In this document: one piece after another, positions 116 through 25,281 of the stretch
How the letters are laid out: each line of letters starts with the position of its first letter
How positions within the stretch are numbered: the stretch's first letter is position 1
IMG/VR virus record: IMGVR_UViG_3300042549_002700
Location: 1 to 25,553 of that record
From: a virus
DNA length: 25,553 nucleotides
Strand: one strand, 5' to 3'
Notes under the pieces: model-generated
The model's database searches: none
Told to the model about the DNA's origin: nothing
The model's input: the letters and a program-made list of their open reading frames with translations, nothing else
Made by a program: the position numbers and the translations under genes

Positions 116-116
116 A

Positions 117-626: not shown

Positions 627-633
627 GGGCTGT

Positions 634-4512: not shown

Positions 4513-4958
4513 ACATCCAAGAAGGCAAGCTTGAGTGGTTTGGAGGGAACCAAGACGCCCTGAACATGTATCGGGCGTTTATTTTTCTTGCACACACTTG
4601 GGACGATTTGGTCGACAAAGACAAGGACGTACCGGAAGACGCCATCAACCAAGCCTTTTTAACCGCGCTTGTGTACTTGCCTGCAAACCCTTTTTACCGC
4701 AGCATCCAAAATGATATTTTGCCCATGTGGCTTGTTGTCGTGTCGTCGTTCCAGACGGCCAATGCCTATGAGCGAAGCAAAGATGCGCACGGTATCGAGA
4801 TCGCACACGGGCTGCGCTACGCCGCAGGCAACATCATTGCGTATGCAATACATGTCTGTGTGAGCGCTGAACAAGCTAAGCTACATTTACCAGAGATGTG
4901 GAAAGCTATTTTCCATGAGCGGTTTGATGCTTACCGCGAGGAGCACTTAGATGTTTAA
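4509..4958 (+). CDS. Conserved phage protein with an Asp-rich WDDLVDKDKD motif (149 aa)
   Basis: An apparently all-helical protein. Near residue 35 it has HTWDDLVDKDKDV, followed by PEDAINQAFLTALVYLPANPFY, a block I recognise from small unannotated phage proteins. The DDxxDxDxD arrangement looks able to bind divalent metal and superficially resembles the Asp-rich motif of class I terpenoid enzymes. The protein is too short for such an enzyme, and no second metal motif of that family is visible. A Leu/Val/Trp-rich stretch (LPMWLVVVSSF) is not long enough to be a convincing membrane segment. The start overlaps the upstream stop by four bases (ATGA) with no good ribosome site, so translation is probably coupled. 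The function is unknown. Confidence 0.6.
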   Translation: MNIQEGKLEWFGGNQDALNMYRAFIFLAHTWDDLVDKDKDVPEDAINQAFLTALVYLPANPFYRSIQNDILPMWLVVVSSFQTANAYERSKDAHGIEIAHGLRYAAGNIIAYAIHVCVSAEQAKLHLPEMWKAIFHERFDAYREEHLDV

Positions 4959-7263
4959 TGTTTTTAAATGGCTGTTTAACCCCGATTGGTACATCCTACG
5001 CATGGGTGGGGGTGATAGCGGCGGCGGCGCTCCTGCGCAGCAGACCAACATCTCGGACCTGCCTGAGTGGGCCAAGCCGTATGCGCAGCAGACGCTGGCA
5101 AAGACGCAGGCGCTGACCGACGTTAATAAGTTCCCCACCTACACTGGCGGTGAGCGTATTCAAGGGTTTGATCCGCTGCAACAGCGGGCTTACGAAGGTG
5201 TTGGCCAGATGCAAGTTCCTGGGCAGACCGGGATGGCGTCCAATATTGCAGAATCCGCTGCCATGCGCGGCCTCAATACGCAGTACCAGCCGGGCTATTT
5301 TGGCAATCAGTTCCGCGCTCCGGGGCAGTACCAGCCCGGGCAGTTTGGCATGATGTCGGCAGAAGCGCCTGAGCTGCAACAGTACCAGATGGGCCCTGCC
5401 GAGCGTGTGCAGGGCGGGCAGTACAACGCCCCTATGATGGACACGGCGCAGACCGGATACCGCCCAGATATCCAGGCGTTTCAAATGGGCCCTGCCGAGC
5501 GTGTGCAGGGCGGGCAGTACAACACGCCTGAAATGCAAGCTGCGCAGACTGGGTATCGGCCCGACTTGCAGCAGTACCAGATGGGCCCTGCCGAGCGCGT
5601 AGCTGGTGGTCAGTATGGCGCATACACAATGGACGCCGCCCAAACTGGGTACCGCCCAGACTTGCAACAGTACCAGATGGGGCCAGCACAGCAAGTTGGC
5701 ACGCAAGACTACACGGGCGGCAATGTTGCCAAGTACATGGACCCCTACATGCAGCAGGTGGTCGGTGTTCAGCAGCGTGAAGCGCAGCGCCAGTCGGATA
5801 TTGCTGGTACGCAAGAAGCTGGGCAGGCTGTTAAGCAAGGTGCGTTTGGTGGCTCCCGTGCAGGTCTGCTTGAGGCAGAACGTCAGCGCAATCTGGCTAC
5901 TCAACTGGGCAACATCCAAGCTACTGGTAGCCAAGCCGCGTTCCAAAACGCGCAGCAGCAGTTCAATACGCAGCAGCAAAGAGAGCTGGCTGCGCAGCAG
6001 GCAAATCAAGCTGCGGGTCTTACTGTCGGCGGTCAAAACCTTGCCGCACAACTTGGCATACAGCAACTTGGCGCACAGACGGGCGTCCAAACCGCGCTGG
6101 CTAACCTAAGTTCTGAGCAACAAGCCAATGTTCAAAACCAAGCTGCGCAAATGCAAGCACAAGGTTTGTCCGCAAACCAAGCAATGCAAGCTGCGTTGGC
6201 TAACCAACAAGCGGGGCTCACTACAGGTCAGCAAAACCTTGCCGCTCAATTGGGTGTTCAGCAGCTTGGGACGCAGGCAGGGTTACAAACCGCTTTTGCC
6301 AACCTGAACAATCAGCAGCAAGCAGCGGTACAAAACCAAGCCGCACAACTGCAAACACAGGGCCTCAGTGCAGGTCAGGCTATGCAGGCGGCGCTTGCCA
6401 ATCAGCAGGCAGGGCTCACTGTTGGCCAACAAAACTTGGCCTCGCAACAACAAGCGCAGCAGCTCGGTACACAGACTGGGCTGCAAACATCGCTGGCCAA
6501 TCTCAGCGCAGAACAGCAGGCCAACGTACAGAACCAAGCCGCACAGCTTCAGACCCAGGGTCTTACCGCTGGCCAAGCCATGCAGGCGGCGCTGGCCAAC
6601 CAACAAGCCGGACTCACCACCGGACAGCAAAACTTGGCAGCTCAGCTTGGCATTCAGCAGCTAGGCGCGGGGCAAAACCTGCAAGCACAGCTTGCCAACC
6701 AGCAGGCGTTCCAGCAGGCACAGGCTCAGCGTGAAGCGTCGCGTCAATTTGGTGCGGGACAGGCAATGACTGCCGCGCAGGCACGCGCCCAGTACGGTCT
6801 GGCAGGTCAGCAGCTTGGTGAGCAGTCTCGCCAGTACGGCGCTGGTTACGGGCTACAGGGTTTAGGCACTGCCCTTCAAGGCGCAGGACAATTGGGGCAA
6901 CTTGGACAGCAGCAGTTCGGGCAGCAAAAAGACATCTACGGTCTGCAAAACCAGTTTGGTGCGCAGCAGCAAGCGCTGGAGCAGCAACGCCTGTCACAAC
7001 GGTACCAAGACTTCCTTAATGAGCAGCGCTACCCGTACCAGCAGTTGGAGTTCATGTCGAACATCTTGCGCGGCACGCCGATGGGTACGGTCAATACAAT
7101 GTACGCCCAGCAGCCCAGCGTCGCTTCGCAGCTTGCAGGTCTGGGTGTTGCAGGCGCGGGCGCATACGGGCTGGCCAACCGCAAAAAAGGCGGCGCAATC
7201 AAGGACAAAGAAAAGACACGCGCAGGCTTGAACGAGCTGGCACTGATGAAGATGGGGGCTTGA
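4951..7263 (+). CDS. Gln/Ala-rich repetitive virion protein (770 aa)
   Basis: The N-terminus has a short hydrophobic patch (FNVFKWLFNPDWYIL), then GGG and DLPEWAKPYAQQTL, a common opening of large phage virion proteins. Two separate repeat arrays follow: a 32-residue unit (LQQYQMGPAERVQGGQYN, closed by QTGYRPD) from about residue 142 to 249, and a 66-residue unit (NLAAQLGIQQLG, SSEQQANVQNQAAQ, AMQAALANQQAGL) from about residue 356 to 573. Between them is a KQGAFGGSRAGLLEAERQRNL region. The rest is Gln-rich helix ending in a basic KKGGAIKDKEK tail. The ATG at 4951 is preceded by GAGGAG and overlaps the previous stop by eight bases. The alternative start at 5002 has no comparable site. A fibrous or ejection role is inferred from repeats and context. 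Confidence 0.65.
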   Translation: MFNVFKWLFNPDWYILRMGGGDSGGGAPAQQTNISDLPEWAKPYAQQTLAKTQALTDVNKFPTYTGGERIQGFDPLQQRAYEGVGQMQVPGQTGMASNIAESAAMRGLNTQYQPGYFGNQFRAPGQYQPGQFGMMSAEAPELQQYQMGPAERVQGGQYNAPMMDTAQTGYRPDIQAFQMGPAERVQGGQYNTPEMQAAQTGYRPDLQQYQMGPAERVAGGQYGAYTMDAAQTGYRPDLQQYQMGPAQQVGTQDYTGGNVAKYMDPYMQQVVGVQQREAQRQSDIAGTQEAGQAVKQGAFGGSRAGLLEAERQRNLATQLGNIQATGSQAAFQNAQQQFNTQQQRELAAQQANQAAGLTVGGQNLAAQLGIQQLGAQTGVQTALANLSSEQQANVQNQAAQMQAQGLSANQAMQAALANQQAGLTTGQQNLAAQLGVQQLGTQAGLQTAFANLNNQQQAAVQNQAAQLQTQGLSAGQAMQAALANQQAGLTVGQQNLASQQQAQQLGTQTGLQTSLANLSAEQQANVQNQAAQLQTQGLTAGQAMQAALANQQAGLTTGQQNLAAQLGIQQLGAGQNLQAQLANQQAFQQAQAQREASRQFGAGQAMTAAQARAQYGLAGQQLGEQSRQYGAGYGLQGLGTALQGAGQLGQLGQQQFGQQKDIYGLQNQFGAQQQALEQQRLSQRYQDFLNEQRYPYQQLEFMSNILRGTPMGTVNTMYAQQPSVASQLAGLGVAGAGAYGLANRKKGGAIKDKEKTRAGLNELALMKMGA
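5374..5697 (+). repeat. Tandem 96-bp coding repeat, three full units plus a partial fourth
   Basis: Units start exactly 96 bases apart at 5374, 5470, 5566 and 5662; the fourth covers only about 36 bases. Each encodes a 32-residue unit with QMGPAERV and GGQYN near its start and QTGYRPD at its end. The first two copies share long identical stretches around the GGGCCCTGCCGAGCGTG core. The third has diverged more (AGGQYGAYTM), and the fourth degenerates after QMGPA. Confidence 0.9.
6016..6669 (+). repeat. Tandem 198-bp coding repeat, three full units plus a partial fourth
   Basis: Units start exactly 198 bases apart at 6016, 6214, 6412 and 6610, each opening with GLT[VT]G[GQ]Q followed by NLA. 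Each 66-residue unit contains QTGLQT-type, NQAAQLQTQGL and QAMQAALANQQA segments. The copies are nearly the same in protein but differ at many third codon positions, so they have been kept alike at the protein level over time rather than duplicated recently. The fourth unit keeps about 20 residues before diverging. Confidence 0.9.
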
Positions 7264-7264
7264 G

Positions 7265-8896
7265 ATGATTAACGTCAACCAAATCACCTCGCAGCTTGCA
7301 CGGATGCCTGATCAGGCGTTGCAGCAGTATGCGCAGATGCACAAGAGCGACCCGTACATCATGGCCTTGGCGCTGTCCGAGTCCAACCGCCGCAAGCAGA
7401 TGCGCAGTGGTGCGCAGATGGACGCCCCTGAGCAGCCCAAAGTTGTTGACCAAGAGATACAAGGCATGGCCTCCCCCATGCCCGAGAACGTAGGTATCGG
7501 CCAGCTCCCAGCAGGCGATATGAACTTTGCCGATGGCGGCATCGTTGCGTTTGGCTCTGGCGGTGATGTGCCGAGGTATCAGAGTCAGGGGTTGGTGCAA
7601 GGGTACTCGCACGGTATGGTTGATCCCAGCGGACTTTTTGGCTTGGGGCCAGAAGCTACGGCTTACGACCAAGCTCGCATCGAAGAAATTCTTGCGCGTA
7701 GAAAAGCTGCGGAACGCGCAGCGCGTATTAAGTTTCTTGAAACTGCCGCACCCGAAACTGCAAAAAGAATGAAGCAGGAAGGCGCAGCAACGCCGGATGC
7801 AATTGGTCGTTTGAGTCCTGGCGATATGGCGCTGCGCCAGCAACCTGTCGCTGCACCTCCCCCTGCCGCGCCCAAACCCGATGCTGGAGACCCACGCCAA
7901 CGTACCCTTGCTGGTGGCCCCGAGTTTCTTGGAGGTCCTGGCCCCGGCGCAGCGCCTGCTGCCGGGCTGACTGCGGCTGCACCCAACTTGGACGTTTCCA
8001 AGATAATGTCCACCGCGCTTCAGGGCGCTGCAGCAGCCAAGCACCCGTACGAATCCGAGCTTAAGGGTATTGGGCAGGAGCGCGTTGCAGCCAAAGAAGC
8101 GGAAGTTACTGGACTGGAAGCCATCCAGAAACAGTTCTCCGACATATACAAAGGGCGCAAAGAGCGGCTGGACACCAAGGAAGCCGAGCTGAGCAAACTC
8201 AAAGACCAAGGTATGGGCTTGGCGCTGCTGCAAGCAGGCGCAGCCATGATGACCACGCCGGGCGGGTTTGGTACAGCGCTGGGCAGGGGCGTCAGGGTGG
8301 GCACAGAGCAGTACGCTGCGGGACTTGATAAGCTGCAAGCGGCCAAAGACAAGCTATCCGATGCGCGTGACCGTCTGGAAGAGATTGAAGCACAGCGCGG
8401 CGAGCTGTCTGCTCGGGAGTTGTTCAAGGCCCGCAACGCGGTGAAAGACACCAGCATTGGTGCCCGCGAAGACTTGGTAAAAGCCAACATGCAGATGTAT
8501 GGCCTCAAGCGCGAAGAAGCGCTTAAGCTGGTGGAGCAGCAAGTCAAGGTCGGACTGTCGCAGTTTGAGCAGGGCGAAGCAACCAGGCGGTCGGCCTTTG
8601 AGCAGGGCGAAGCAACCAAGCGCACCCAGATCACGGCAGGCGCACAACTCGGGTTGCTCAGAGCCGTTGCCAACGAGCCCAAGTTGCAGGCTATCTACGG
8701 CAAAGGGCAGGGCCAAAACAAGATCATGGATGAGTTCAATGAGTTTGTGAAGGCCAACCCGAAGTACCTCACAGACGAGAGCGCAGCATTGCAAGCGTTC
8801 TTGCGCACCAAGGGTGTGCTGTCTTCGCTGGGCGCTGCAAGCGCAGCACCGGGCGCAGGCGCGGCACCGGGGCCGGTACTTCCAAGGAAAGACTGA
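7265..8896 (+). CDS. Conserved probable virion/ejection protein with a long coiled coil (543 aa)
   Basis: The start, INVNQITSQLARMPDQALQQY then DPYIMALALSESNRRKQMR, is a block that recurs in the run of late virion genes of short-tailed phages. Near residue 85 it has LPAGDMNFADGGIVAFGSGG, also recurrent. The middle is Pro/Ala-rich and probably disordered. From about residue 260 to 470 the sequence is heavily charged and heptad-like (EAEVTGLEAIQKQ, KERLDTKEAELSKLKD, DARDRLEEIEAQRGEL), which predicts a long coiled coil. It is broken by a small Gly/Ala-rich hydrophobic piece (GMGLALLQAGAAMM). The ATG begins one base after the previous stop, with a GGGGG tract as ribosome site. No enzyme motif is seen. 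Its place just before the giant polyvalent gene suggests they act together in the particle, which is inference. Confidence 0.6.
   Translation: MINVNQITSQLARMPDQALQQYAQMHKSDPYIMALALSESNRRKQMRSGAQMDAPEQPKVVDQEIQGMASPMPENVGIGQLPAGDMNFADGGIVAFGSGGDVPRYQSQGLVQGYSHGMVDPSGLFGLGPEATAYDQARIEEILARRKAAERAARIKFLETAAPETAKRMKQEGAATPDAIGRLSPGDMALRQQPVAAPPPAAPKPDAGDPRQRTLAGGPEFLGGPGPGAAPAAGLTAAAPNLDVSKIMSTALQGAAAAKHPYESELKGIGQERVAAKEAEVTGLEAIQKQFSDIYKGRKERLDTKEAELSKLKDQGMGLALLQAGAAMMTTPGGFGTALGRGVRVGTEQYAAGLDKLQAAKDKLSDARDRLEEIEAQRGELSARELFKARNAVKDTSIGAREDLVKANMQMYGLKREEALKLVEQQVKVGLSQFEQGEATRRSAFEQGEATKRTQITAGAQLGLLRAVANEPKLQAIYGKGQGQNKIMDEFNEFVKANPKYLTDESAALQAFLRTKGVLSSLGAASAAPGAGAAPGPVLPRKD
8564..8618 (+). 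repeat. Short 33-bp tandem duplication
   Basis: An identical 22-base block occurs at 8564-8585 and again at 8597-8618, a period of 33 bases. It encodes FEQGEAT twice in a row (FEQGEATRRSA, then FEQGEATKRTQ) inside the coiled-coil part of the 543-residue protein. The exact nucleotide identity points to a fairly recent slippage or duplication. Confidence 0.85.
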
Positions 8897-8913
8897 CCCT
8901 TATATACTCAAGG

Positions 8914-8950
8914 CACCGTCTGGATTCGGCCCGGACGGTGACTCTTTTCT
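8914..8950 (+). terminator. Hairpin between two late genes, possible terminator or leader structure
   Basis: CACCGTC at 8914-8920 pairs with GACGGTG at 8934-8940. The stem continues inward through a T-G and two G-C pairs, giving about 10 base pairs and a 7-base loop. It is followed by ACTCTTTTCT, a weak T-rich run. It lies in the 75-base gap before the 2842-residue gene, so it could partly terminate transcription or act as a leader structure. Just before it is TTATATACT (about 8899-8907), which resembles a -10 box, but I see no convincing -35. Confidence 0.4.
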
Positions 8951-8971
8951 AAGCCGACACAATTTGCAGCT

Positions 8972-11900
8972 ATGGCACAGTACCTCACGCTCCCCAACGG
9001 AAGTCAGTTTGAAATTCGACAGGGCGAAACGCGAGAGCAAGCGCTGTCCAAAGCTTTGCAGCAGTACCCAGAAGCCTTTGGGTTCGGGCAAGCAGCGCCC
9101 ACAGAAGCGCCCGAGTCTGGGTTTGTGCCAGCACTCAAGTCTGGCATCTCCTCGCTCAAGTCTGACGTAGCGGCGCTGGCCGGTCGTACCGGCATCATGG
9201 ATCAGGCTGCGGCAGAAAAATACATCCAAGAGCAGGCGGACTACCAAAAGCGTACGTTCAAGCCCACCGCCACGTTTGGCGAAGCGCCGGTTACTAAAAC
9301 CCTGGAGCTGCTTGGCGGCTCCTTTCCCTACATGGCCGCGCCCATCGCCGCTGGTGCCCTTGCACCGGCAGGTGCTCTTGCACTGGGGGCAGCAGGCGCA
9401 GCGTCAGCGGCGCAGTTCACGGGCTCCAACCTATCCCGGCAGATGGGCGAGGGCAAGGCGCTCGGTGAGACCGACATTACGTCTGCCGCGCTCGCCGCTG
9501 TGCCGCAGGCCGCGCTCGATGCGCTCAGCCTCAAGATGCTGCCCGGGATTCGCAGTATTTTTGGCCAAGCAGGCAAGGAAATTTCCAAAGACGTTGCCCA
9601 GGCAATTGCCCAGCAGAGCGTCAAAGAAGTTGCCAAGGACTACGCGGTTGCCACCGGCAAGGCAATGGGCACTGAGGGTTTGACCGAGGTCGGGCAGCAG
9701 GCGCTTGAGCGTTTGCAAGCCAGTCTGTCGTTGACCGACGAGAAGGCTCGGGACGAATACCTTGAGAGCCTGATTGGGGGCGCGGTGCTGGGCGGCGTGC
9801 TGTCCCCTGCCGGTCGCTACGTTGAGCGTGGCCGTCAAGCCAAAAAGGAAGAGGCCGACACCCTTGCTGCGGCGATGCAGCAGCGCGAGGCCGACGCCAA
9901 GCAGCGCGAAGAAGCGCTGACCTCTCCCGAGGGGCGGCTTGCGTTTGTTGAGGACTACGAGGCTCGGCAGGCCCGGTTCCAAGAACTCAAAGACATGGAT
10001 AAGCCCGGCAAGGATGCCACGCCGCTGCAGCAGGCCGAGTACACCGAGATCAAGAAGGAAAAGAATAACCTGGGCAGGAGCCTGTACCGCGACAGCGCCG
10101 AGTACAAGAAGGCGGTGCCTATAGCCCAGCAGCTCAGAGAGCAGCGCCGCGTCGATGCAATGACGCCCCAAGAGTATCAAATGGAGCAGCTCGGGCTTGC
10201 CCCAGGACTTGCCGCCCCGCCAGCAGCACCGACACCGCCATCGGCAACGGACGAGCTGTTCAATATGTACACCCAGGGTGCGCCTGCTACTGCTGCGCCC
10301 AAAGTACAGGAAGCACCGCTCTCTCCTGCTGAACAGTATGCGGCGCAGACTGCGGCACTGGTACAGAAAGACATCTACACCAAACCGGAAGTGTCAGACT
10401 ACGTTGAGTACCTGATGCAAAACCCGGAGATGGCGGCACAAGTGGTCGAAGAGCGTATCAAACTACCCTCGTTGACAAAGGCTGAGAATAACGCGCTGCT
10501 GTCCGGTATAAACCTACAACTGAAGGACATTGAAAAGAAGCGTGCGGCAGGTGTGCGCGACGAAATGGCGCAGCGTACAGCAGACATAAAGGCACAAGCA
10601 CCCAAGGTAGAGACGCCTGACACTACTGCGCAAGACCTGGGCGAGTTTTACCAGCAAAAAGTTGAAGAAGGCCAGGGGTACATCGAGCCGACGTTTGAGT
10701 ACCTTGACCCCATCTTTGAGCAAGCCTTCAATCAGCCGCCGGTTGTGGCGGTTAAGCCCGAAGTTACGCCTGTCTCCGACGCACCCAAACTACGCCAGCG
10801 TGTTGAAGATTTGATGCAGCAGGCCGATGCTGCGGATGTGGGCGCAGCAAAGCTTACGAGCAACCCGCAAGCTCAGGCGGAAGCAGAACAGAAGCTTGTT
10901 GCCAGCGTCTCTGAGTTAAATCGCCTTGGCCAGTTTGGTGACGAGTACACCAAAGAGTTTGTTCGCCTGCGCAACCAGCAAAACGAGGCTGCTGCAAAGA
11001 TTGCAGATTTGACGGATAACCTGCGCACAGGTCTGACTTTGCAAGGGCGCGACGCCAAGCTTGCCGCCAACACCATTGAGGGTACGCAAAACAAAATTGC
11101 TGAAGCACGGGCGCAGTTTATTTCTTCGTCGTTGCAAGAAGCTGCGCTGCACCGCCGTGCCGAGGGCAAGCCTGCGTTGACCCAAGATGAAGCGGTCAAA
11201 GCCGCCTCAAAGCTGTTCGACACCATCAACACTTGGACGGATCGGGCAAAGACCGAACCCCAACGCCCGGAGTACGAAGAAGTCATCGTGCAGCCTGCGC
11301 AGATGCGCGGCACCAAGATTGTCAAACCCGCTGTTACTGAGCGCCGTCTTGTGGAGCCGGGACAGCGCGGCATCAGCCCCGCAGAAATACGGCACTTTAA
11401 AGAGCGGCTCAACGCTGTACGGCGCGACTTGTTTACCGTGCCAGAACCCAAAGGCACACGCGTTGAGGGTGAGTTTCTCAAGCGGCAATACCCAGAAACG
11501 GAAGCAGCCAAAGTTGCCGAGGCTAGCGGAGAAACCGCTGAGACGCTGGGTGGAGAGCTGCGTCGCCGTACTGAGTTTGTGCGCAACAAGATGGCAAAGA
11601 TGGGCCCTATGCGCCCAGCCGCCCGCAACGCGCTGAACAAGGCTGCGGATGTTCTTGATTCCGGCAAAGCTACACGCGACGTTCTGGACAAGACTGAGGC
11701 GTTGGTGGACGCCATCAACAACAAGTTGCAGGTAAAGCAAGTCGATGTGCAGGCGCTGGAAGACGCGCTGCAGGCAAGCCAACCCACTGCGGAAGAGCAA
11801 CGCGTTGCTGGCCAGAAGCAGTTGTTTCCTGAAACGCAGGAGGACCTTGGCTACATTCGCATGAGCCCGAAGAACTTTGCCAGCTCTCCGCGCATTAAAC

Positions 11901-14900
11901 CTGTGTGGGCTGCTTTGGCCAAAGCACGGGAGTTGGCAGCGCGTTTGAAAAGCAAGCAGGAAAAAAGCAAACGAATTGGCCAAGCTCGCATGGCGGCTGT
12001 TAAGCGGCTTGAAGAAGACATTGAAAAGCTTACAGAGCGCACGGAATTTTTTTGGAAAGACCAAACCCAATGGTCCAACGCCGAGATTGCACGCTCGTTT
12101 GTAGAGTTTCCTGACATTGCGAACACCCCAGAGGACCGGGCGCTAATCAACCGATACACGCAGCGGCAAAAGCTTACCCCGCAGGAGCAGATGCGAGTTG
12201 ATGAGGTGTTGCGTAATTTCCGGGAAAAAGCGCGTCCTGAGTACGATGCCAAGCTTAAGCAGGCACTGACTTTGTTGGCGGAGCAAGGTACGCTTGACGC
12301 TGCGGATAACAGCCTGACCAAGTTCATGCTGGACGCCAACAAGCAGACCCGGGAAGCTGCCAAAGCATTGCAAGAGCGCATCACTCCGTTGCAGCGCACC
12401 ATTGACGCGCTGCGCGAAGCTATGAAAGGCAGTCCGATTCTGACGCCTGCGCAAAAGCAACTGGCTGCTGCCAGCGACAAGGCTCGTCAACGTAGAGACA
12501 AGTTTGCAGCAACGGCCAAGCAAGCAATGGATGTGGCCCGAGTTGAGATCGAGACCGCGCTGCAAGAGGTGCTGGACCCGGAGATTGAGCGTACAGAGCA
12601 AGCGCTTTCCAAGGCGGAAAAAGACCTGGCTGCCGCAAAGAAAGATTTGGAAAAGTACAAAAGCAACTTTGACAAGATACTGGCGGTGCCGGGACGGCTG
12701 CAAGACCGCACGCAGCTTGCCACATACGAGCTGCTTCGCTACGAAGAAAAGCTGGGCATCATCAACGATCTTGAAAAACGGATTGAGCGCGAGTCTGCAC
12801 AACTGGCCGATCTGTTTGAAGCGCGTTTGGAGTCTTTGAGCGGCGCACAGCTTGCAGCCCAGGCTATGCTGAGCAAAAATGTGCAGTATCACCGCAAGCT
12901 TGCTGTTGATGCGGAGAAGCGGTTGGCCGCGCTCAAAGGCGACAACGTGTTGGACAAACCCGGCGCGTATCCCTTTGCCGCGTCCCAAGCCGAGGCTGAG
13001 CTTAAAGCTGCCAAAGCACAGACTGCCAACGCCGAGGCCATGCAGGCTGCGTTTGAAAAGCAGCTCGCTTCCATGAAGAAGCAGGAGACCCCGCTGTACG
13101 AACGCATGAACAAGCTCAGAGACCTGGGCGGCGTCAAGCGTGTCGAGGGCCGTATTGAGTCCATCAAGACGCCAGAACAGGTTGCAAGAGAAAAAGAGCT
13201 TGACGAAGTTGCGCGTGAACATCAGCGGGCACAAGAGAAAGCGCAGCGCGACGCCATCAAACAAGCGCAGATCGACGAGTCTGAGAACCGGATTGTTGAG
13301 TTGTCGCTGGACGCGGCTCGCTACGACGGCCCGATGGATACGGCGCAACTGGCAGAACTGTTGGCGCAAGAGGGCATCTCTCGCAACCTCAAAGCGCAGT
13401 ACACCCTCAAGCTTGACGCGCTGCAAAAATTGCAGATTGAGGAAGCACGGATTGAGGCGCTCAAAGAAGGCCGTCCTGTACGAGAGCCCAAGCCAGCTAC
13501 GGTACCCACCACCGCCAAGCAAGCGGCAGCAAAAGGGTTCCGCACAGGCTACCGCAAGACGCTTGAAGCGGCATCAGAGGCGCTGGCCTCTGAGCGAGAA
13601 GGCAGAGCGCCCGGAAGGTCGCGGGGATTGTTGGACCCCGATGCGTTTGTGTCATCAGATGATCTTGGCGGGCTTTTTGAGGGCAGAACTGCTGCTCGGT
13701 TTGGGGATGAAGATGTTTCTCCCAGTGCCATGAAAGGCAAAACCGAAAACGTCGATCTGTACTACAACGGCGAAGCTTGGTACAGCTTGGCTGACGATGA
13801 GATTAGCAGTGCGCTGTTTGCAATTTCTCGGAGACTGGAAGGTAAAGAGCCATCTTTAAAAAATCTGCAAGCTGCGGCAGACGAGGTGGCTAAGGAAGAA
13901 CAAGGCTTCGTGCAATCTTCAGAAAGATACCTGCAAGACCCGCGCCGCACAACGGCTGAGCGTAAAAGCACTACAGAAATGTTGCAGTCCGTTCAAAACA
14001 GGCTTAGTGCGCTTAAAAACTTGGATTTCACCAAAGTTAAGACGCAGGAGCAACTGCGTGCAGAAAAGAGCGCAGTACGTGCAGCACCGCTTGCGCCAAG
14101 AAAGACGCTTGCAAAAGCAGCCGCCCCATCAACTTCCGGTGCCGCGCTTGCTCGGCAGTACAAAACTGGCCTTGATGAGAGTGCGGAATTTAACGGCATG
14201 ACGTTTGCGCAGGCTGCTCGTTACGGTGCAAAGAAGACTACTTCGCCAATGGTGCGGCAACTGTTTGAAAGGTTGGCCGTTGTTTTTGAACAAGCCCCCG
14301 CCGATCAGCAAGGAGTTGTATACGCAGCAGATGGGCCGTTGACCATGTCTGACGGCAAGCTGGCGGCAGGCATTTTTGCAAATCGCATTAACACCATTTT
14401 GACTGTAGCGCCTTCCGTACGTGCTGGAGCCAACAAGACTTTGCTGCACGAGCTTGTGCATGCCGCAACGGTACGCGGCTTGATGGTGGACAAAGAACTT
14501 GATGCGCGGGTAACCGATTTGCGCGAACGCGTGCAAGCGTGGCTGGAAACCGCAGATGGGCGAGCATATTTCCGCAAACACTCAATGGAGTTGCAGGCTA
14601 AAAACCGCCAATCCATCTACGGGCTTACCAACAACAAAGAGTTCTTGGCGGAGCTGTTTGCGGATCGCGGTTTTCAAAAGATGTTGTCGGTCATTCCGTC
14701 TGGCAAACCGCGCACAAGCATTCTTACGCGTTTTGTACAAGCTCTGGTCAAGTACTTTGATATGCCCGGCCAAGCTGCACAATCTGCTTTTGCAGAAGCT
14801 GTGGCGCTGACGGAGGAAGTGCTCAACACTACGGTTCAGCAGGTGTACAAGACGCCCAACATTGCTGAACTTGCTGCGGGTGACTCTGATATTTCTCCGC

Positions 14901-17500
14901 TGATATTGCGAGAGCCGAAGTACGCTTCGCCTGAGTGGGCCAGTGCCGGGGAGGACATTGGCAAAGTTGTGGCGCAGCAGCGCACCTGGGGTGACGGAAT
15001 CAAGGCTAACGCTACCGGGCTGGCCTTTGAGACCCAGCTTGTGGATCGCTTTGCTGCGTTTGAGCGGTTGCGCAAGTACATGCCAGAGCAGATGGGCACC
15101 CAGATGATGTACTACCTGCGCATGTACGACCAGCGCATGAACTTTGTCTCGCAGGCTGTCAGCAACGGCGCACTGCGGCTGGCTGAAAAGACACGCCCTG
15201 ACGGCAAGACCGAGTACCTCATCGAGAGCAAAGAGGGGGCCAATATTGCAAACGTGGTGGAAGTGCTGCGCGGCGCACAGCCCTTCATCGGTAACGCCGA
15301 GGCTGTGAACCAAGCCTTTACGACCTACCTTGCCGCGCTGCGTGCCGACCGTGTGGGGCTGGCCAAACTCAACTTTGGCGGCAGTGTTACGCAAGAGATG
15401 CTGGACCGCACTATGCGGATGGTCAACGGCAACGACAAGCTTAAGGATGTGTTTGAGAAGGCACGCCGCGAGTACAACGCCTACAACCGCGACCAGATTG
15501 CAATGGTGGCTGCCACGGGCGCTATCTCCAAAGAGACGGAAGCAGCGCTAACTCGCACCGAGGACTATATCCCGTTCTACCGTGCGCAAAACGGTGTCGT
15601 GGATCTGCTCATTGGCGGTGAAGCGCCCATGCGTATCGGCAGCATTGCCGAGCAGCCGTACCTGCAAGAGCTTGTTGGCGGCGACCAGCCGATCTTGGAC
15701 TTCATGACCAGCTCGGTGCAGAACACAAACATGCTGGTGGATATGGCGCTGCGCAATCTGGCGACCAAGAACGCTGTGTTTGAGCTGGTTAACCTGGGCG
15801 CTGCCAAGATCGTGGCTGGCAAACCGGCTGGCCGGGATGTGGTGCAGTTCAAGGTGGACGGCCAGGACCGCTACGCTGTGATCTCGTCAGAGAAGGTCAC
15901 CATTGGCGGCAAGACGTTTGAGACGGGTGTGCCTGCCGACATCTTGGTCAAGGGCATGGAGGGTATCCCCACGCAGATGCCGTTCCTGTTCCGCGCTATG
16001 GCGATGCCTGCGCAGCTTCTGCGCAAGGCCGTGACGCTCAGCCCCCTGTACATGGCCAAGCAGTTGTTCCGCGACTCACTGGCCGCTCCGATCACCTCCG
16101 GTGCCAACTTTACACCCGTCATGGGGGCGCTGCGTCAGATTGGCAAAGAGTCTGGCAAGGCGCTGGAGACACGCGGCGTTACTGGCGGGCAGTACATGAC
16201 CGGCAGCGCCGACGACATCACCAAGATTTTGCGTGACATATCGGATGGCAAGCCGGGCTGGATGTCGGCACTGAGCAAGGCCGAGGCTATCGGTATGAAG
16301 GCTGACGCTCTGACGCGCCGGGCGCAGTACAACAGCTACATCGAACAGGGCATGTCGGAGATGGAAGCCACGCTCATGGCGCTGGAGTCCATGAACTTCA
16401 ACAAGCGCGGTGCCAGCCCCAGCATCCACGTAGCCAACGCACTGATCCCGTTCTTCAACGCCCAGATACAAGGCTTGAACGTGCTGTACAAGGCGATGAG
16501 CGGCAAGATGCCGTTCAACGACAAGCTCAAGATTCAGCAAAAACTCTTGATGCGTGGCGGCATGATGGCGGCGGCATCGCTGCTCTACGCCGCGCTGATG
16601 GAAGACGACGAGGCGTACCAGAACGCGCCTCCTGACCAGAAATATGCCAACTGGTTTGTGCGCATACCGGGTATTGACCAGCCAATTCGTGTGCCGATTC
16701 CCTTTGAGATCGGCTACATCTTCAAGGCGTTGCCCGAGGCGCTGTATAACAGCATGACCAGTAAGCAAGGTGGCGAGGATGCGGTCAAGGCGTTCAAGCA
16801 AATCTTGCTGCAAACCATCCCCGGTGGTTCTAGCTATGGCATCCCGCAGATCATGAAGCCCGCCATTGAGGCTGGCCTGGGCAAATCGTTCTACACCGGG
16901 CGCGACATTCTGTCTGCACGAGAAAAGGAGCTGCTGCCTGAAGATCAGTTCCGCGCCAACACTGCTGAGATCTCCAAGGTGGTGGGCAAGGCGATGGGCA
17001 TATCCCCCATCGTCATGGAGAACTTGGTGCGCGGTTACACCGGCACGATGGGTTTGGCGTTCCTTCACGCACTGAGCTTGGGCGCTCCCAAGTCGGAGTC
17101 TCCTGAAGCTGCGGTCAAGCGGCTGTCGGACTACCCAATCATTGGCGGTGCGTTCCAGCCCAACGATGCTGGGGGCATAACCAACGCTGTGTACGAGCGC
17201 TTTAACGAAGACATCAAGGTGCGCAACAGCTACAAGAAAATGGTTGAAGAGGGCCGGTCAGCCGAAGCCAAGGAGCTGCTCCAGCGCCGGGGCAACGAGA
17301 TCATGGAGGCCGAGATTGCCGATGTGTTCAAGCAGAACATGAACAAGCTTACCCAGGCCGAGCGAGCGATTGCGGCGTCCAGCCTAACCCCAGAGCAAAA
17401 GCGCAAGCAGCTTGACGAGCTGCGCAAACTCAAGACGGCCATCTCTCAGACGATGCGCGAGACCGCCGACAAGACGGTCAAGCTGTCATCCCCCTTTTGA
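8972..17500 (+). CDS. Giant phage polyvalent protein with zinc metallopeptidase motif and LPD38-like region (2842 aa)
   Basis: One uninterrupted frame, roughly 310 kDa. Residues 1-40 (LPNGSQFEIRQGETREQAL) form a small N-terminal module. About 113-150 is an Ala/Gly-rich hydrophobic stretch that could cross a membrane. About 280-1600 is mostly charged helix and coiled coil. A zincin motif, LLHELVHAATV, places His1826, Glu1827 and His1830 as metal and catalytic residues, with Glu1890 or Glu1894 in KEFLAELFAD as a likely third ligand. About 2190-2710 resembles the large-polyvalent-protein domain LPD38 (EDYIPFYR, LSPLYMAKQLFRDSL, NAQIQGLNVLYKAM, RVPIPFEIGYIFKALP). The C-terminus is helical. Polyvalent proteins of phages are thought to be injected with the DNA and to act on the host early; that role here is inferred. 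The MAQYLTLPNG start is typical, but no clear ribosome site precedes it. Confidence 0.8.
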   Translation: MAQYLTLPNGSQFEIRQGETREQALSKALQQYPEAFGFGQAAPTEAPESGFVPALKSGISSLKSDVAALAGRTGIMDQAAAEKYIQEQADYQKRTFKPTATFGEAPVTKTLELLGGSFPYMAAPIAAGALAPAGALALGAAGAASAAQFTGSNLSRQMGEGKALGETDITSAALAAVPQAALDALSLKMLPGIRSIFGQAGKEISKDVAQAIAQQSVKEVAKDYAVATGKAMGTEGLTEVGQQALERLQASLSLTDEKARDEYLESLIGGAVLGGVLSPAGRYVERGRQAKKEEADTLAAAMQQREADAKQREEALTSPEGRLAFVEDYEARQARFQELKDMDKPGKDATPLQQAEYTEIKKEKNNLGRSLYRDSAEYKKAVPIAQQLREQRRVDAMTPQEYQMEQLGLAPGLAAPPAAPTPPSATDELFNMYTQGAPATAAPKVQEAPLSPAEQYAAQTAALVQKDIYTKPEVSDYVEYLMQNPEMAAQVVEERIKLPSLTKAENNALLSGINLQLKDIEKKRAAGVRDEMAQRTADIKAQAPKVETPDTTAQDLGEFYQQKVEEGQGYIEPTFEYLDPIFEQAFNQPPVVAVKPEVTPVSDAPKLRQRVEDLMQQADAADVGAAKLTSNPQAQAEAEQKLVASVSELNRLGQFGDEYTKEFVRLRNQQNEAAAKIADLTDNLRTGLTLQGRDAKLAANTIEGTQNKIAEARAQFISSSLQEAALHRRAEGKPALTQDEAVKAASKLFDTINTWTDRAKTEPQRPEYEEVIVQPAQMRGTKIVKPAVTERRLVEPGQRGISPAEIRHFKERLNAVRRDLFTVPEPKGTRVEGEFLKRQYPETEAAKVAEASGETAETLGGELRRRTEFVRNKMAKMGPMRPAARNALNKAADVLDSGKATRDVLDKTEALVDAINNKLQVKQVDVQALEDALQASQPTAEEQRVAGQKQLFPETQEDLGYIRMSPKNFASSPRIKPVWAALAKARELAARLKSKQEKSKRIGQARMAAVKRLEEDIEKLTERTEFFWKDQTQWSNAEIARSFVEFPDIANTPEDRALINRYTQRQKLTPQEQMRVDEVLRNFREKARPEYDAKLKQALTLLAEQGTLDAADNSLTKFMLDANKQTREAAKALQERITPLQRTIDALREAMKGSPILTPAQKQLAAASDKARQRRDKFAATAKQAMDVARVEIETALQEVLDPEIERTEQALSKAEKDLAAAKKDLEKYKSNFDKILAVPGRLQDRTQLATYELLRYEEKLGIINDLEKRIERESAQLADLFEARLESLSGAQLAAQAMLSKNVQYHRKLAVDAEKRLAALKGDNVLDKPGAYPFAASQAEAELKAAKAQTANAEAMQAAFEKQLASMKKQETPLYERMNKLRDLGGVKRVEGRIESIKTPEQVAREKELDEVAREHQRAQEKAQRDAIKQAQIDESENRIVELSLDAARYDGPMDTAQLAELLAQEGISRNLKAQYTLKLDALQKLQIEEARIEALKEGRPVREPKPATVPTTAKQAAAKGFRTGYRKTLEAASEALASEREGRAPGRSRGLLDPDAFVSSDDLGGLFEGRTAARFGDEDVSPSAMKGKTENVDLYYNGEAWYSLADDEISSALFAISRRLEGKEPSLKNLQAAADEVAKEEQGFVQSSERYLQDPRRTTAERKSTTEMLQSVQNRLSALKNLDFTKVKTQEQLRAEKSAVRAAPLAPRKTLAKAAAPSTSGAALARQYKTGLDESAEFNGMTFAQAARYGAKKTTSPMVRQLFERLAVVFEQAPADQQGVVYAADGPLTMSDGKLAAGIFANRINTILTVAPSVRAGANKTLLHELVHAATVRGLMVDKELDARVTDLRERVQAWLETADGRAYFRKHSMELQAKNRQSIYGLTNNKEFLAELFADRGFQKMLSVIPSGKPRTSILTRFVQALVKYFDMPGQAAQSAFAEAVALTEEVLNTTVQQVYKTPNIAELAAGDSDISPLILREPKYASPEWASAGEDIGKVVAQQRTWGDGIKANATGLAFETQLVDRFAAFERLRKYMPEQMGTQMMYYLRMYDQRMNFVSQAVSNGALRLAEKTRPDGKTEYLIESKEGANIANVVEVLRGAQPFIGNAEAVNQAFTTYLAALRADRVGLAKLNFGGSVTQEMLDRTMRMVNGNDKLKDVFEKARREYNAYNRDQIAMVAATGAISKETEAALTRTEDYIPFYRAQNGVVDLLIGGEAPMRIGSIAEQPYLQELVGGDQPILDFMTSSVQNTNMLVDMALRNLATKNAVFELVNLGAAKIVAGKPAGRDVVQFKVDGQDRYAVISSEKVTIGGKTFETGVPADILVKGMEGIPTQMPFLFRAMAMPAQLLRKAVTLSPLYMAKQLFRDSLAAPITSGANFTPVMGALRQIGKESGKALETRGVTGGQYMTGSADDITKILRDISDGKPGWMSALSKAEAIGMKADALTRRAQYNSYIEQGMSEMEATLMALESMNFNKRGASPSIHVANALIPFFNAQIQGLNVLYKAMSGKMPFNDKLKIQQKLLMRGGMMAAASLLYAALMEDDEAYQNAPPDQKYANWFVRIPGIDQPIRVPIPFEIGYIFKALPEALYNSMTSKQGGEDAVKAFKQILLQTIPGGSSYGIPQIMKPAIEAGLGKSFYTGRDILSAREKELLPEDQFRANTAEISKVVGKAMGISPIVMENLVRGYTGTMGLAFLHALSLGAPKSESPEAAVKRLSDYPIIGGAFQPNDAGGITNAVYERFNEDIKVRNSYKKMVEEGRSAEAKELLQRRGNEIMEAEIADVFKQNMNKLTQAERAIAASSLTPEQKRKQLDELRKLKTAISQTMRETADKTVKLSSPF

Positions 17501-17692
17501 TGTAGCGCGGTAGAACCACACGCCAATTTTGCCGTCCTTGATGCGGACGCTGGCTTGAGCGTCGAAGACACGGCAGCGCAGGGCTTCCTTGAGCCCTGCT
17601 TGCCGCACTTCTTCTGTGTTCAAGCACGGGATGAAGAACCCGTGCTTGCGGTCAACCGACCGCCACGGGAACAAGCGGCTGTAGGATGGCAT
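17486..17692 (-). CDS. Small conserved-looking phage protein (68 aa)
   Basis: It starts inside the 3' end of the primase gene (41-base overlap) and ends 15 bases inside the convergent giant gene. The core, FFIPCLNTEEVRQAGLKEAL followed by RVFDAQASVRIKDGKIGVWFYR, has the alternation of a small alpha/beta protein. It resembles short unannotated phage proteins that begin with FFVP and end with G-V-x-F-Y-R. No catalytic motif is seen. It would be the last gene of the replication transcript. The ribosome site is weak (AGAAG directly before the ATG), so translation is probably coupled to the primase. Its coding sequence contains two perfect hairpins, which could partly explain its odd composition. 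It is less certain than its neighbours. Confidence 0.55.
   Translation of the reverse strand: MPSYSRLFPWRSVDRKHGFFIPCLNTEEVRQAGLKEALRCRVFDAQASVRIKDGKIGVWFYRATSKGG
17578..17599. repeat. Perfect inverted repeat (8-bp stem, 6-base loop)
   Basis: GCAGGGCT at 17578-17585 is the exact reverse complement of AGCCCTGC at 17592-17599, with loop TCCTTG. It lies inside the 68-residue gene, about 80 bases from the point where the two transcripts converge. On the + strand it is followed by a pyrimidine-rich stretch (TTGCCGCACTTCTTCTG), but there is no clean T tract on either strand. Confidence 0.7.
17621..17648. repeat. Perfect inverted repeat (10-bp stem, 8-base loop)
   Basis: CAAGCACGGG at 17621-17630 is the exact reverse complement of CCCGTGCTTG at 17639-17648, with loop ATGAAGAA. 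This GC-rich stem lies 21 bases from the previous inverted repeat, within the same small gene (encoding KHGFFIPCL). It has no T tract on either side, so it is not a standard intrinsic terminator, but it would fold stably in RNA of either strand. Confidence 0.75.
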
Positions 17693-20609
17693 CTTCTATG
17701 TCGTCTGCGCGTCTGGTGATCTTGACGGTATTGACCCGCATGGGCGGCCCGTCCGTCTTGGCCATCATGTCCTTGCGCTGCATGAAGTTGGTGATGAACA
17801 GCTTGGATATCTGCTCGCGGAAGGTGTTGTAGCTAAAGCTCATGGCCGAGCAGTACGACCGCAGCAATCGCTCTTCGATGTAGAAGTCCACACCGCCACC
17901 ACCGACGCCGTGCTCGACCCGGCCCATAACCTCCGAGCGCGTGGTGTTCTTGCCGACGATAGAGCCGTCGCTAAACACAGCCGACACGCCAGCCTTCTCG
18001 CCAAACTTGACCACCACGAACTTGCCCTGGAACTCCTGAATGTAGGCGTTGAGCACATCCTCGGCGGTGCGCTTGCCACTGGCGATGCTTTGGCGCTGGC
18101 TCTCAAATGTGTCTCTGAGCACGTTGATGATCTCCTGCATGGGAATCTCGGCCAGCCCCGTGTGCTGGCTATTGCACAGGATGCCAGCGGCAACGATGAT
18201 CCCGGCCCCCGCCATCCAAAAGCGCTCATCGTTGGGGGCGTTGAACTCCTTGTACATCTGCGCCACGGTCTGCGGCACGAGCTTCTTGAGGTAGTCCACG
18301 TTGTTCACAAAGTACCGCGCCAGCACATCGCCTGCCAAGCCGTAGTTGCCCTGCAAGGACTTGATGATCTCGATCTCCTGCGCATCCCAGTCCAGCTTCT
18401 CGTCCATCGACATCTCGATCAGGCGGCGCAGCTCGCCCTCAGATGAGTGCTGGCGCACGCTTGTCAGGTAGTCCACCGCTGGCCGGTTCGATGACATCAG
18501 CGCCAGGGCTGCCCAGATCGACAGGTTCAACCGCTCGCGGTTGGTGCCCGACTCCATCCTCTCTTTGCCGCGACCCTCGGACATACTGAAGAGGAAGGCA
18601 GGGAACCACTCAAAGTCGTTGCGGTTGTTGGTGGTGATCTCGTCGGTGACAAGCGGCAAGCTGCGCAGGTGCCCCAGGCGCTGCTGCATGGCCACGGCAG
18701 ATGTGCCAGAGCCTGTGCGGTAGTGGATCGGGTGGCCCCAGACAGAGGCGGCGGTATCGAGCGCCAAGGACTTGCCAGTACCCGACTCAGCCGAGGCGCA
18801 GTGGACGGTGAGACCGAAGAGGCCCGTAAAGCGCATGAGGGGCGATGCCACGCCTGCCAGGAAGATCGTCAGGTGCTTCCACAGCTTGCGGCGCACCATC
18901 ATGTTGATGACCGACTGCCACGCCTCCAGCGTCCCAGCAGGCTTGGTGTTGTTGACGATGTTCTCCAGCCCCGCCATAGGCACAAAGATGGGCTCGGCAC
19001 CGGCCTTGTAGATGGAGCTGTTGAAGACAAAGCTGTCGTCGTCTTGCCAGCCGTACGCCGATGGGATGCGGATAGGGGATTTTTCGGTGCTCATTTTCTC
19101 AACGCTTGCGCGTACGTACTCGTACAGGTTCTTGTCATTGCCCGAGCCGAACGCGGCCAGGATGTTCTGGGTGGCCAGATGCTTGAGCGCATCGTCTCTG
19201 GCGGCCATGCTTTTTTGCGGCAGAAGGACTTCTTGAATCTGGTCTTTGCGCACAGCCAGCAGGTGCACCTCGTGGGTGCCGTTGTTGTTCAGAATGTCCA
19301 CGGGGAACAGGTCGTAGGGCAGTAGCATGTGCTGGCGCTTGATAGTGTTGCCATCACCGTCTTCCTCTTCCTTCTCGATGAACACGCCGCCGTACCGGCC
19401 AAACGCGTAGCCCCGAGGTGGCTCTGGGCGGTAAATCTTCTGCGGTGGTGCATCTTCTACAGGCACCTCAAGCTCGACGGCCTCAGTCACCGCGTTGATC
19501 TCGCGGCCCCAGCCCAGTGGGTTGGTGATCTTGCCCCTGTGCGGGCACTTGGTACACACGCCGGGGTTGGCATCGTTCATGGCCTCGCACGAGTACGGCC
19601 CTTTGATCTCGTGCAGCTTCCTGTACATCCGGTCGTGATCGTACGGGTGCATGTCGCTCAGCCAGATGCCAGCCTTGTCGCCGTCTATGCAGACCTTGGT
19701 CCAGCTCAGCAGCCCACGCCACAGCGGCTCCATGCCGTCCTCGGACGCGTTCTCGATGTAGTGCGCAATCTGACCGCAGCCGGTGCCGTCCTTGGTCTTG
19801 AGCAGGATTTTTTTGAAGCGCGTGATGCTGTTGCCGATGATGGCCTGCGCAGTGGGCGAAAGAGAAGAGACACTGGTTGGTCTCTGCCCCGGCAGGGCAA
19901 GGGAGGTAGTCCTCTGGACTACTACGTCTTTGCCAAAGCCTTCAGCCGTCAAGATAGCATCGAGGTCGTCCACGGCAAAGCGGTTGCCCTTAGAGATGAA
20001 GCGCACCTTGGTGACCTCACGTACGCGCTTGCCGTTCTTGACCCCGGTATTGATCGTGTCGAACACGCGCAAGACCCTGGACGCATCGCCGGTCACAGCG
20101 TTGTCGATCTTCAGCTCGTGCTTGTGGCACAGCTCCTTGAACCGCTTGGCCAGGGGGAACCAGTCCTCCTTGAACAGCATCTCATTGAGCGGCCAGTACG
20201 CGTGTATGCCGCCGCCTGAGTGCACAAGCCAGGGGTCACCCAGGCCAGACAGCCCTGTGTCCTCACAGAACTTTTGCAGTGCAGCCGCCGCAGCCTTGGC
20301 GCTGGGGTACGACTTCGGTTTGATGACGCCATCGGCGTCGGGGATGTCTTTGGTGTGGTTGCAGTCCAGATCAACGGCCAGCACTTGGCTGGCGTGCATG
20401 TTGTCCTTGGTGCGGTCTTTGTTGGTGCCGAACGTGGCCAGCGCGAAATATGTGTCGTAACCCTTCTTGGCCCACTTCTCAACCGTGGGCATGATCTCTT
20501 CCAGCGTCTCCCCGAAAACGTGTTCTTTCTTGTTTGTAAGCTCTGCCGCGCAGTAATACCCATTACCCGGCGACGGCAGAACCTCCGCTAGAAACTCAAG
20601 CGGTGTCAT
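17652..20609 (-). CDS. Primase-helicase: archaeo-eukaryotic-type primase fused to a DUF927-like helicase (985 aa)
   Basis: This would make primers and unwind DNA at the phage fork. The N-terminal primase has motif I, LAVDLDC, with Asp80 and Asp82; motif II, VHSGGGIHAYWPL, with His130 and His136; and motif III, KIDNAVTGDASRVLRVFDT, with Asp170. Residues 278-357 form a primase-associated region with Cys341, Cys352, Cys355 (CTKCPHRGKI) and probably Cys278, likely to bind zinc. The C-terminal ATPase has Walker A SAESGTGKS with Lys613 and Walker B PLVTDEIT with Asp656 and Glu657. The text around them (TAASVWGHP) fits the DUF927 family of helicase-like ATPases. An AGGAG site precedes the ATG. It is the longest gene of the - strand module, and one protein covers both DnaG-like and DnaB-like roles. 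Confidence 0.85.
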   Translation of the reverse strand: MTPLEFLAEVLPSPGNGYYCAAELTNKKEHVFGETLEEIMPTVEKWAKKGYDTYFALATFGTNKDRTKDNMHASQVLAVDLDCNHTKDIPDADGVIKPKSYPSAKAAAAALQKFCEDTGLSGLGDPWLVHSGGGIHAYWPLNEMLFKEDWFPLAKRFKELCHKHELKIDNAVTGDASRVLRVFDTINTGVKNGKRVREVTKVRFISKGNRFAVDDLDAILTAEGFGKDVVVQRTTSLALPGQRPTSVSSLSPTAQAIIGNSITRFKKILLKTKDGTGCGQIAHYIENASEDGMEPLWRGLLSWTKVCIDGDKAGIWLSDMHPYDHDRMYRKLHEIKGPYSCEAMNDANPGVCTKCPHRGKITNPLGWGREINAVTEAVELEVPVEDAPPQKIYRPEPPRGYAFGRYGGVFIEKEEEDGDGNTIKRQHMLLPYDLFPVDILNNNGTHEVHLLAVRKDQIQEVLLPQKSMAARDDALKHLATQNILAAFGSGNDKNLYEYVRASVEKMSTEKSPIRIPSAYGWQDDDSFVFNSSIYKAGAEPIFVPMAGLENIVNNTKPAGTLEAWQSVINMMVRRKLWKHLTIFLAGVASPLMRFTGLFGLTVHCASAESGTGKSLALDTAASVWGHPIHYRTGSGTSAVAMQQRLGHLRSLPLVTDEITTNNRNDFEWFPAFLFSMSEGRGKERMESGTNRERLNLSIWAALALMSSNRPAVDYLTSVRQHSSEGELRRLIEMSMDEKLDWDAQEIEIIKSLQGNYGLAGDVLARYFVNNVDYLKKLVPQTVAQMYKEFNAPNDERFWMAGAGIIVAAGILCNSQHTGLAEIPMQEIINVLRDTFESQRQSIASGKRTAEDVLNAYIQEFQGKFVVVKFGEKAGVSAVFSDGSIVGKNTTRSEVMGRVEHGVGGGGVDFYIEERLLRSYCSAMSFSYNTFREQISKLFITNFMQRKDMMAKTDGPPMRVNTVKITRRADDIEDAILQPLVPVAVG

Positions 20610-25279: not shown

Positions 25280-25281
25280 GG

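Follow-up and report, generated by a model that had tools for sequence, protein, structure and literature searches.

The window analysed here is an entire virus record (IMGVR_UViG_3300042549_002700; 25,553 bases), and it holds a single giant open reading frame (ORF) on the + strand, which starts with ATG and stays open for 2842 codons. Judged by its sequence, the encoded protein is a phage-type polyvalent protein, having both an LPD38 domain and a zincin module, and comparison with its relatives indicates that it is a chassis in which a constant C-terminal block and a conserved but looser N-terminus enclose an exchanged middle. We propose that it is probably a short-tailed phage's large ejection protein, matching gp16 of T7 in gene position and expanded into a polyvalent chassis whose effector slot can be exchanged. 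An earlier, sequence-only reading of this DNA had described one 8.5-kb frame as the last late gene, and both points held: the frame has no internal stop, and it is the final late + strand gene, with a convergent primase/helicase coming next (Table 1). The exchange of the middle between close relatives and the lack of cysteine in the giant protein had gone unseen in that reading.

A scan of IMG/VR with the giant protein returned 11 loci, and a scan with the alignment of the C-terminal block returned at least 444 relatives, the best 80 of which were kept; loci L001, L013, L016, and L027 were dropped before counting, being on the same contigs as other loci. The C-terminal part (residues 1980–2842) is common to all relatives, at identities of 97% (L003), 89% (L004), and down to 39–40% in the most distant, whereas the middle is often not shared. 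Among the 60 full ORFs, the C-terminal block of the window was matched by 86–98% of the others, its middle up to residue 1500 by 38–63%, and residues 1501–1800 by 8–24%; the middle of L003 (residues ∼600–2200) was matched by 2–8%. The N-terminus (residues 1–385) directly matched that of 35 of the 59 other full ORFs at an expectation (E) value of 1e-5, rising to 51 at 0.01; the N-termini of all 60 link into one cluster. By coverage of the cargo, the 60 ORFs form six clusters of 30, 15, 11, 2, 1, and 1. Because the window falls in the largest, its cargo is among the common ones; the exceptional feature is that very close phages can differ in cargo. The clearest exchange is with one such phage, G001 (68,326 bases, 1592 bases at both ends repeating at 99.8%), whose aligned parts are 87–100% identical to ours in 500-bp windows and 97–100% from position 20001 to the end. 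The exchanged region listed in Table 1 has no blastn match in G001, in which a different 5.7-kb sequence takes its place, and the adjoining DNA matches; it is the longest unmatched stretch, the others being 1–632, 3366–3881, and 7601–7863.

We then counted what occupies the slot before the C-terminal block in the 71 ORFs with readable sequence there, 5 of 76 ORFs being left out for too little upstream sequence. HExxH was present in 25, HExxGH in 24, and neither in the readable sequence of the remaining 22; 11 of the 71 are 5′-incomplete, including 4 of these 22. These 49 motifs are all that occur in the 205,796 residues of the 71 ORFs, where composition alone leads one to expect 0.49 HExxH and 0.03 HExxGH, and every one lies 71–181 residues ahead of the reference point of the C-terminal block (48 of them at 135–181). 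One module, marked by conserved GTWHG, GTY, and N-Y-V-D stretches, is common to 20 of the 22 zincin-less ORFs. Near-copies are included (L034/L036/L037, L077/L078/L087, L020/L073, and L040/L076), so the 71 ORFs are not 71 independent events. On a tree of 66 C-terminal blocks, made by a short search with L036, L037, L087, L076, and L080 left out, the four slot states require at least 19 changes, compared with a least possible number of 3 and a mean of 32.4 after shuffling. Further, 31 pairs (near-copies included) combine C-terminal blocks at least 90% identical with different slot modules, as in L024/L028 (98.1%), L014/L015 (96.4%), L034/L055 (93.1%), and L073/L079 (92.6%). As the zincin-less relatives carry another slot module, the peptidase is a swappable module and not the defining feature of the protein.

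In the window, the slot module is, on sequence and model grounds, a zincin metallopeptidase with all its ligands, for which proteolysis is predicted. The HELVH motif named in the sequence-only reading was confirmed, and in our alignment (A2, 39 of the 49 zincin rows) His1826, Glu1827, and Glu1890 are invariant in 39 of 39 relatives carrying the module; the second ligand, also a His, falls at 1830 where the motif is HExxH and at 1831 where it is HExxGH. The two glutamates that reading had singled out fit as candidates for the third ligand, Glu1890 being the invariant one and position 1894 being variously E, D, H, or T. Conservation of HELVH among close homologues, on which it had made the peptidase depend, holds for the ligands where the module is present and fails for the motif as such, which the 22 ORFs above lack. 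The HExxH and HExxGH forms match each other (E 1.1e-12), and the zincin of the window matches that of the N4 virion RNA polymerase (vRNAP; gp50, L114), which has an identical HELVH at 2228, at an hhalign E value of 1.1e-11; the five controls, four shuffled and one reversed, gave 0.11 to 0.95. With this homologous zincin, N4 could serve as a laboratory model for what the module does.

The zincin fold looked for in a structural model was also recovered. In an AlphaFold2 model of residues 1701–2842 (mean predicted local distance difference test score (pLDDT) 67, predicted template modelling score 0.47; zincin part mostly 70–90, locally 51–62), the seven best structural rows were all the catalytic domain of anthrax lethal factor, a zincin, with model residues 11–253 giving a Z score of 8.0, a middling level for the tool (root-mean-square deviation 6.1, 165 aligned); PPEP-1 reached Z 5.7. 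Foldseek alone gave a weak zincin match (E 0.96), and its search of the PDB with the model of zincin and C-terminal block yielded 66 matches at a threshold of E 10, all of which were lost at 0.001. A shared zincin fold shows no function, and because T7 gp16 also holds an HExxH (HERLH, 559), the motif alone is weak evidence. A structural row for N4 vRNAP (9pnr, Z 6.7) was not used as support, because HELVH, at 2228, falls outside its chain numbers (2375–2599), provided that the entry keeps the original numbering. None of 8 records matched MPTase-PolyVal (PF18818) at E 10 or better. A tblastn search with the zincin of the window gave 10 records, among them cr55_1, cr1_1, cr4_1, and cr272_1, which we take to be crAss-like phages. 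The module also matches “internal virion protein C” of Klebsiella phage KPPK108.1 (record positions 34082–34414, E 4e-3), possibly, on this sequence match, a zincin in another ejection protein.

The alternative slot module is likely an ADP-ribosyltransferase, as its sequence suggests. ART-PolyVal (PF18760) was the most-matched family in its alignment (A3, 19 of the 20 rows), and His113, Tyr141, and Asp489 (alignment columns) are invariant in 19 of 19; an H-Y-D triad is given for the transferases of polyvalent proteins in the available part of Iyer et al. (PMC5512222). Two results weigh against the assignment: the ART-PolyVal matches, found for 16 of 19 members with a best E value of 0.0015, are under the curated cut-off (14.9 bits for L017, cut-off 31.2), and in the first half of its catalytic part the module is poorly modelled. 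With PF18760, single-record searches matched 4 of 5 records weakly and none over the cut-off; one weak match is L015, among the two remaining ORFs without the shared module, and sub-cut-off matches also occurred in 2 of 14 control genomes. The model for L017 is weak (pLDDT 64.5), with mostly helical structural matches. The weak match (Z 5.3) of its residues 370–507 to one chain of the cyanophage A4 pre-ejectosome (9k3a) is no more than a lead, from a model, to a possible relation between this module and an ejection protein of solved structure.

These exchanges bear directly on what the zincin may do. It might, inside the head or once in the cell, cut the giant protein or neighbouring ones and thereby free the cargo: its position between the cargo and the C-terminal block suits a release cut, and, in the available part of Iyer et al. 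(PMC5512222), processing of P1 DdrB is described and autoproteolysis is proposed for zincins of polyvalent proteins. However, some of the 22 relatives without HExxH or HExxGH share 93–98% of the C-terminal block with zincin-bearing ones, so a zincin protease is not generally needed, and the zincin-bearing N4 vRNAP is packaged unprocessed according to the same text. We consider self-processing unlikely, with what weight it has, which counts against our proposal, falling on the zincin-bearing members. We favour the role of an injected effector over that of an obligatory processing protease: the zincin, or the transferase in relatives, would act on host proteins inside the infected cell, and the slot enzymes would be exchanged under host pressure. 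A slot for host-directed effectors would be expected to show just such substitution of one protein-modifying enzyme for another.

With respect to packaging and ejection, the C-terminal block matches gp8 of Pelagibacter phage Lederberg (EXVC029P) at an E value of 7.2e-26 over 758 columns. The gene for gp8 follows those for tail tubular A, tail tubular B, an acetyltransferase, an internal virion protein (phrog_418), and a 589-residue protein, and it precedes the tail fibre gene, which is the place of gp16 in T7. The window has unassigned partner genes ahead of the giant gene and no tail fibre gene behind it. In addition, the model of the window protein matches a protein of Ralstonia phage Alix in BFVD (E 5.5e-16), a phage that is presumably close to the JC1 group. 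In JC1 the giant gp69 (4515 residues, LPD38 at 4195–4401) was detected in CsCl-purified virions by 51 unique peptides, as reported in the available part of PMC9144972. The giant protein would thus be packed in the phage head and pass the tail with the DNA, largely unfolded, its C-terminal block and N-terminus serving packaging and passage. The earlier suggestion of a polyvalent, ejected protein is in this way supported in part and indirectly, by LPD38, the zincin, the late position, the synteny of the relative, and the JC1 virion proteome; the “early host-control factor” and the “ejected internal protein” that it had set side by side need not exclude each other.

Several results speak against ejection by such a chassis. 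No similarity to T7 gp16 was found (hhalign E 0.29), and the same was true of the Pelagibacter relative (blastp E 0.034). Foldseek found no known fold for the C-terminal block. In N4 vRNAP the zincin-holding region is required for encapsidation, as given in the available part of Iyer et al. (PMC5512222), which points to a possible structural use of the zincin.

Two further explanations concern the protein as a whole. The first is that it is a relative of N4 vRNAP in which a diverged polymerase or another nucleic-acid enzyme in the middle starts phage expression. The order of parts is that of N4 vRNAP, namely an N-terminal part, cargo, a HELVH zincin, and a large helical C-terminus (PMC12633501, available part), and the two zincins are homologous, with the same HELVH letters, in proteins that both lack cysteine. 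One run matched the C-terminal block to the N4 C2 domain at an E value of 1.4e-8, but another gave 0.092 and a third 0.069, for which shuffles gave 0.088–0.74, and Pfam found no polymerase in the giant protein or the 16 relatives scanned; we regard this origin as quite improbable. The second is that the protein is never packaged and remains in the cell as a scaffold or assembly factor. Late position alone is no proof of packaging, and the T7 scaffold gp9 is also free of cysteine (0 in 290 residues), but another LPD38 giant, JC1 gp69, is present in virions (PMC9144972, available part) and a scaffold role leaves the exchanged enzyme modules unexplained, so that we give it very little credence.

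The ejection reading also draws on composition. The giant protein has 0 cysteines in 2842 residues; the 60 full ORFs, each counted from its first Met, have 11 in 178,769 residues (49 of 60 have none), the 42 adjacent upstream ORFs have 0 in 25,784 residues, and four relatives of the C-terminal block from cultured phages have 0. In 15 ejection proteins of T7, P22, phiKMV, SP6, and N4, assigned by annotation, paper, or position, there is 1 cysteine in 12,608 residues, compared with 62 in 10,126 residues of 22 other virion proteins of these phages (Fisher test, ∼5e-21, a guide only, as residues are treated as independent); because T7, phiKMV, and SP6 are one family, the independent cases are fewer than the proteins. 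N4 vRNAP has 0 in 3500 residues, and seven N4-like C-terminal parts have 0 in 9,502. In a second set (epsilon15, LUZ24, phiEco32, and P-SSP7), ejection candidates chosen by position or annotation have 6 in 9,301 residues and the other proteins 71 in 9,797. T7 gp9 and phiEco32 gp23 (0 in 350) were counted on neither side. Across the window candidates (2998–17500) and several podovirus ejection proteins we observed near-absence of cysteine, and most other virion proteins do not share it. The pattern has exceptions that count against it as a signature of ejection: 5 of the 6 cysteines of the second set are in the four epsilon15 candidates; P22 gp26, phiKMV gp33, the N4 coat protein, and LUZ24 gp60 were counted as not ejected and have none; and lambda gpH is likewise cysteine-free, as are four smaller proteins of the lambda head or tail. 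A search of the open-access literature found no report of cysteine-poor ejection proteins, and the word “cysteine” is absent from the main texts of PMC12633501 and PMC8954989.

Beyond this protein, we tentatively put forward a joint generalization, to which we give somewhat less than an even chance. In environmental podoviruses, the large ejection protein may be a delivery chassis with conserved ends that serve packaging and passage, unnamed cargo, and an exchangeable effector bay, whose slot would switch between metallopeptidase and ADP-ribosyltransferase on very short evolutionary time scales; and cysteine may have been eliminated from proteins that pass the podovirus ejection channel, in which case the injected proteome could be recognised in a genome as its large late proteins without cysteine.

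Domain searches gave few names. The single PHROGs match of the giant protein is phrog_9854, a family of unassigned function, at residues 2162–2825. The LPD38-like region of the sequence-only reading proved to be LPD38 (PF18857) at residues 2546–2724 (E 1e-31; 110.9 bits, cut-off 27), the one Pfam family above cut-off in the giant protein and the 16 relatives, with no name for the cargo. Sequence searches of the PDB (P0001, A2, A3, and two relatives) brought up no credible match; casein kinase II rows, which made up most of one of them, were rejected at E 0.13 or worse. Megablast of window bases 1–25000 found no match in the cultured-phage collection, and none of the 549 pattern matches in a scan of genome contigs for named hosts was a relative. 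A putative membrane stretch and more than 1000 residues of coiled coil had also been described. For the former there is one 19-residue hydropathy window slightly above 1.6 (residues 125–143, 1.62), a weak signal. For the latter, heptad periodicity compared with shuffles, which is not a coiled-coil predictor, exceeds the 95% level in four 150-residue windows of the middle (451–750 and 1051–1350), ∼600 residues in all, and in one window of the C-terminal block (2101–2250).

Table 1. Position of the giant gene, its parts, and neighbouring late genes in the window
Feature	Position	Strand	Remarks
phrog_3287 virion structural protein	634..2637	+	E 1.3e-51
504-residue neighbour, candidate ejection partner	2998..4512	+	0 cysteines; no PHROG
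770-residue neighbour, candidate ejection partner	4951..7263	+	0 cysteines
543-residue neighbour, candidate ejection partner	7265..8896	+	0 cysteines
Giant ORF	8972..17500	+	2842 residues, zero cysteines; probable ejected virion protein
N-terminal block, conserved but faster-changing	8972..10126	+	residues ∼1–385; weakly hydrophobic stretch 125–143
Exchanged region	10441..14914	+	residues ∼491–1981; cargo, partly heptad-periodic, plus slot module
Zincin metallopeptidase module (predicted)	14135..14839	+	residues ∼1722–1956; ligands, structure matches, N4 vRNAP profile match
HELVH motif	14447..14461	+	residues 1826–1830; third ligand (candidate) Glu1890 at 14639–14641
Constant C-terminal block	14909..17497	+	residues 1980–2842 (∼870 residues); mostly helical in model
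LPD38 (PF18857) within C-terminal block	16607..17143	+	Pfam
Primase/helicase (DUF927), convergent, late-operon end	17652..20609	-	homologue convergent in 66/66 loci

The convergent primase follows the giant gene in all 66 loci that have enough downstream sequence, and a relative of the 543-residue neighbour ends within 1.5 kb of it in 32 of the 42 loci with enough upstream sequence, with a match farther upstream in 9 more and none in 1 (L089). At E 0.01, the cultured-phage collection held no match to this neighbour or to the N-terminal 400 residues of the giant protein. Among the 4 weak matches of the 770-residue neighbour in phages, a single one is annotated as “internal virion protein D” (E 9e-3); the rest bear other annotations. 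This neighbour and the 504-residue one differ from their counterparts in G001 (L091), which have 672 and 436 residues, respectively (window positions 5482–6640 and 3366–3881), and G001 has repeats of ∼75% identity in the region of these counterparts; the repeats and length differences suggest that the partner genes are mosaic too. A GH108 lysozyme with a peptidoglycan-binding domain lies at 42–626, and since blastn finds nothing matching window positions 1–632 in G001, which is otherwise nearly identical, the lysis gene appears to be exchanged as well. Early genes on the minus strand encode a Mu Gam-like protein (22149–22559, below the Pfam cut-off), an HNH endonuclease (22632–23138), and an SNF2-type helicase (23204–24763). 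A + strand ORF of 128 residues with 19 cysteines (24982–25368) is probably a spurious reading.

Set against the literature consulted, what appears to be new is the pattern of a conserved chassis and an exchanged slot in close relatives, its bearing on the function of the zincin, and the cysteine signature. If our proposal is correct, polyvalent proteins gain a readable layout of delivery parts and an effector site at which effectors replace one another, and the zincins of this family would have host targets instead of being proteases needed for processing. The lack of cysteine would then offer an inexpensive way to predict, from the genome, which phage proteins are injected; otherwise ejection biochemistry is needed to find them.

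Among known systems, the phage-type polyvalent proteins, a class set out in 2017 that includes zincins with an HExxxH form and transferases (Iyer et al., PMC5512222, available part), are the closest in kind: they too are very large, carry LPD38, HExxH/HExxxH zincins, and H-Y-D transferases, and are encoded by late genes beside virion genes. Unlike them, the giant protein has one recognised enzyme module, in place of which relatives carry another in the same slot, and the available part of that paper was not found to describe slot exchange between near-identical phages. JC1 gp69, a “DarB-like” giant of the Bcep22-like phages, shares the C-terminal LPD38 followed by opposite-strand genes and is virion-associated by mass spectrometry, but is set apart, as described in the available part of PMC9144972, by an N-terminal lytic transglycosylase-like domain, methylase/helicase-type regions, and LPD3, none of which we saw in the giant protein. 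N4 vRNAP gp50, which is ejected, has a homologous HELVH zincin, a large helical C-terminus after it, and no cysteine, but it has an RNA polymerase in the middle (PMC12633501, a preprint, available part). Gp16 of T7 and P22 (PMC8954989, available part) resembles the giant protein in gene position, through the Pelagibacter phage relative, and in lacking cysteine; at 1318 and 609 residues, respectively, these proteins are smaller than the 2842 residues found here, and no lytic transglycosylase was found in the giant protein. Finally, polymorphic toxins offer an analogy, as they join a constant delivery part to exchangeable effector modules (PMC3482391, available part); here, however, delivery would be by the virion, and the exchanged part lies in the middle of the protein rather than at its C-terminus.

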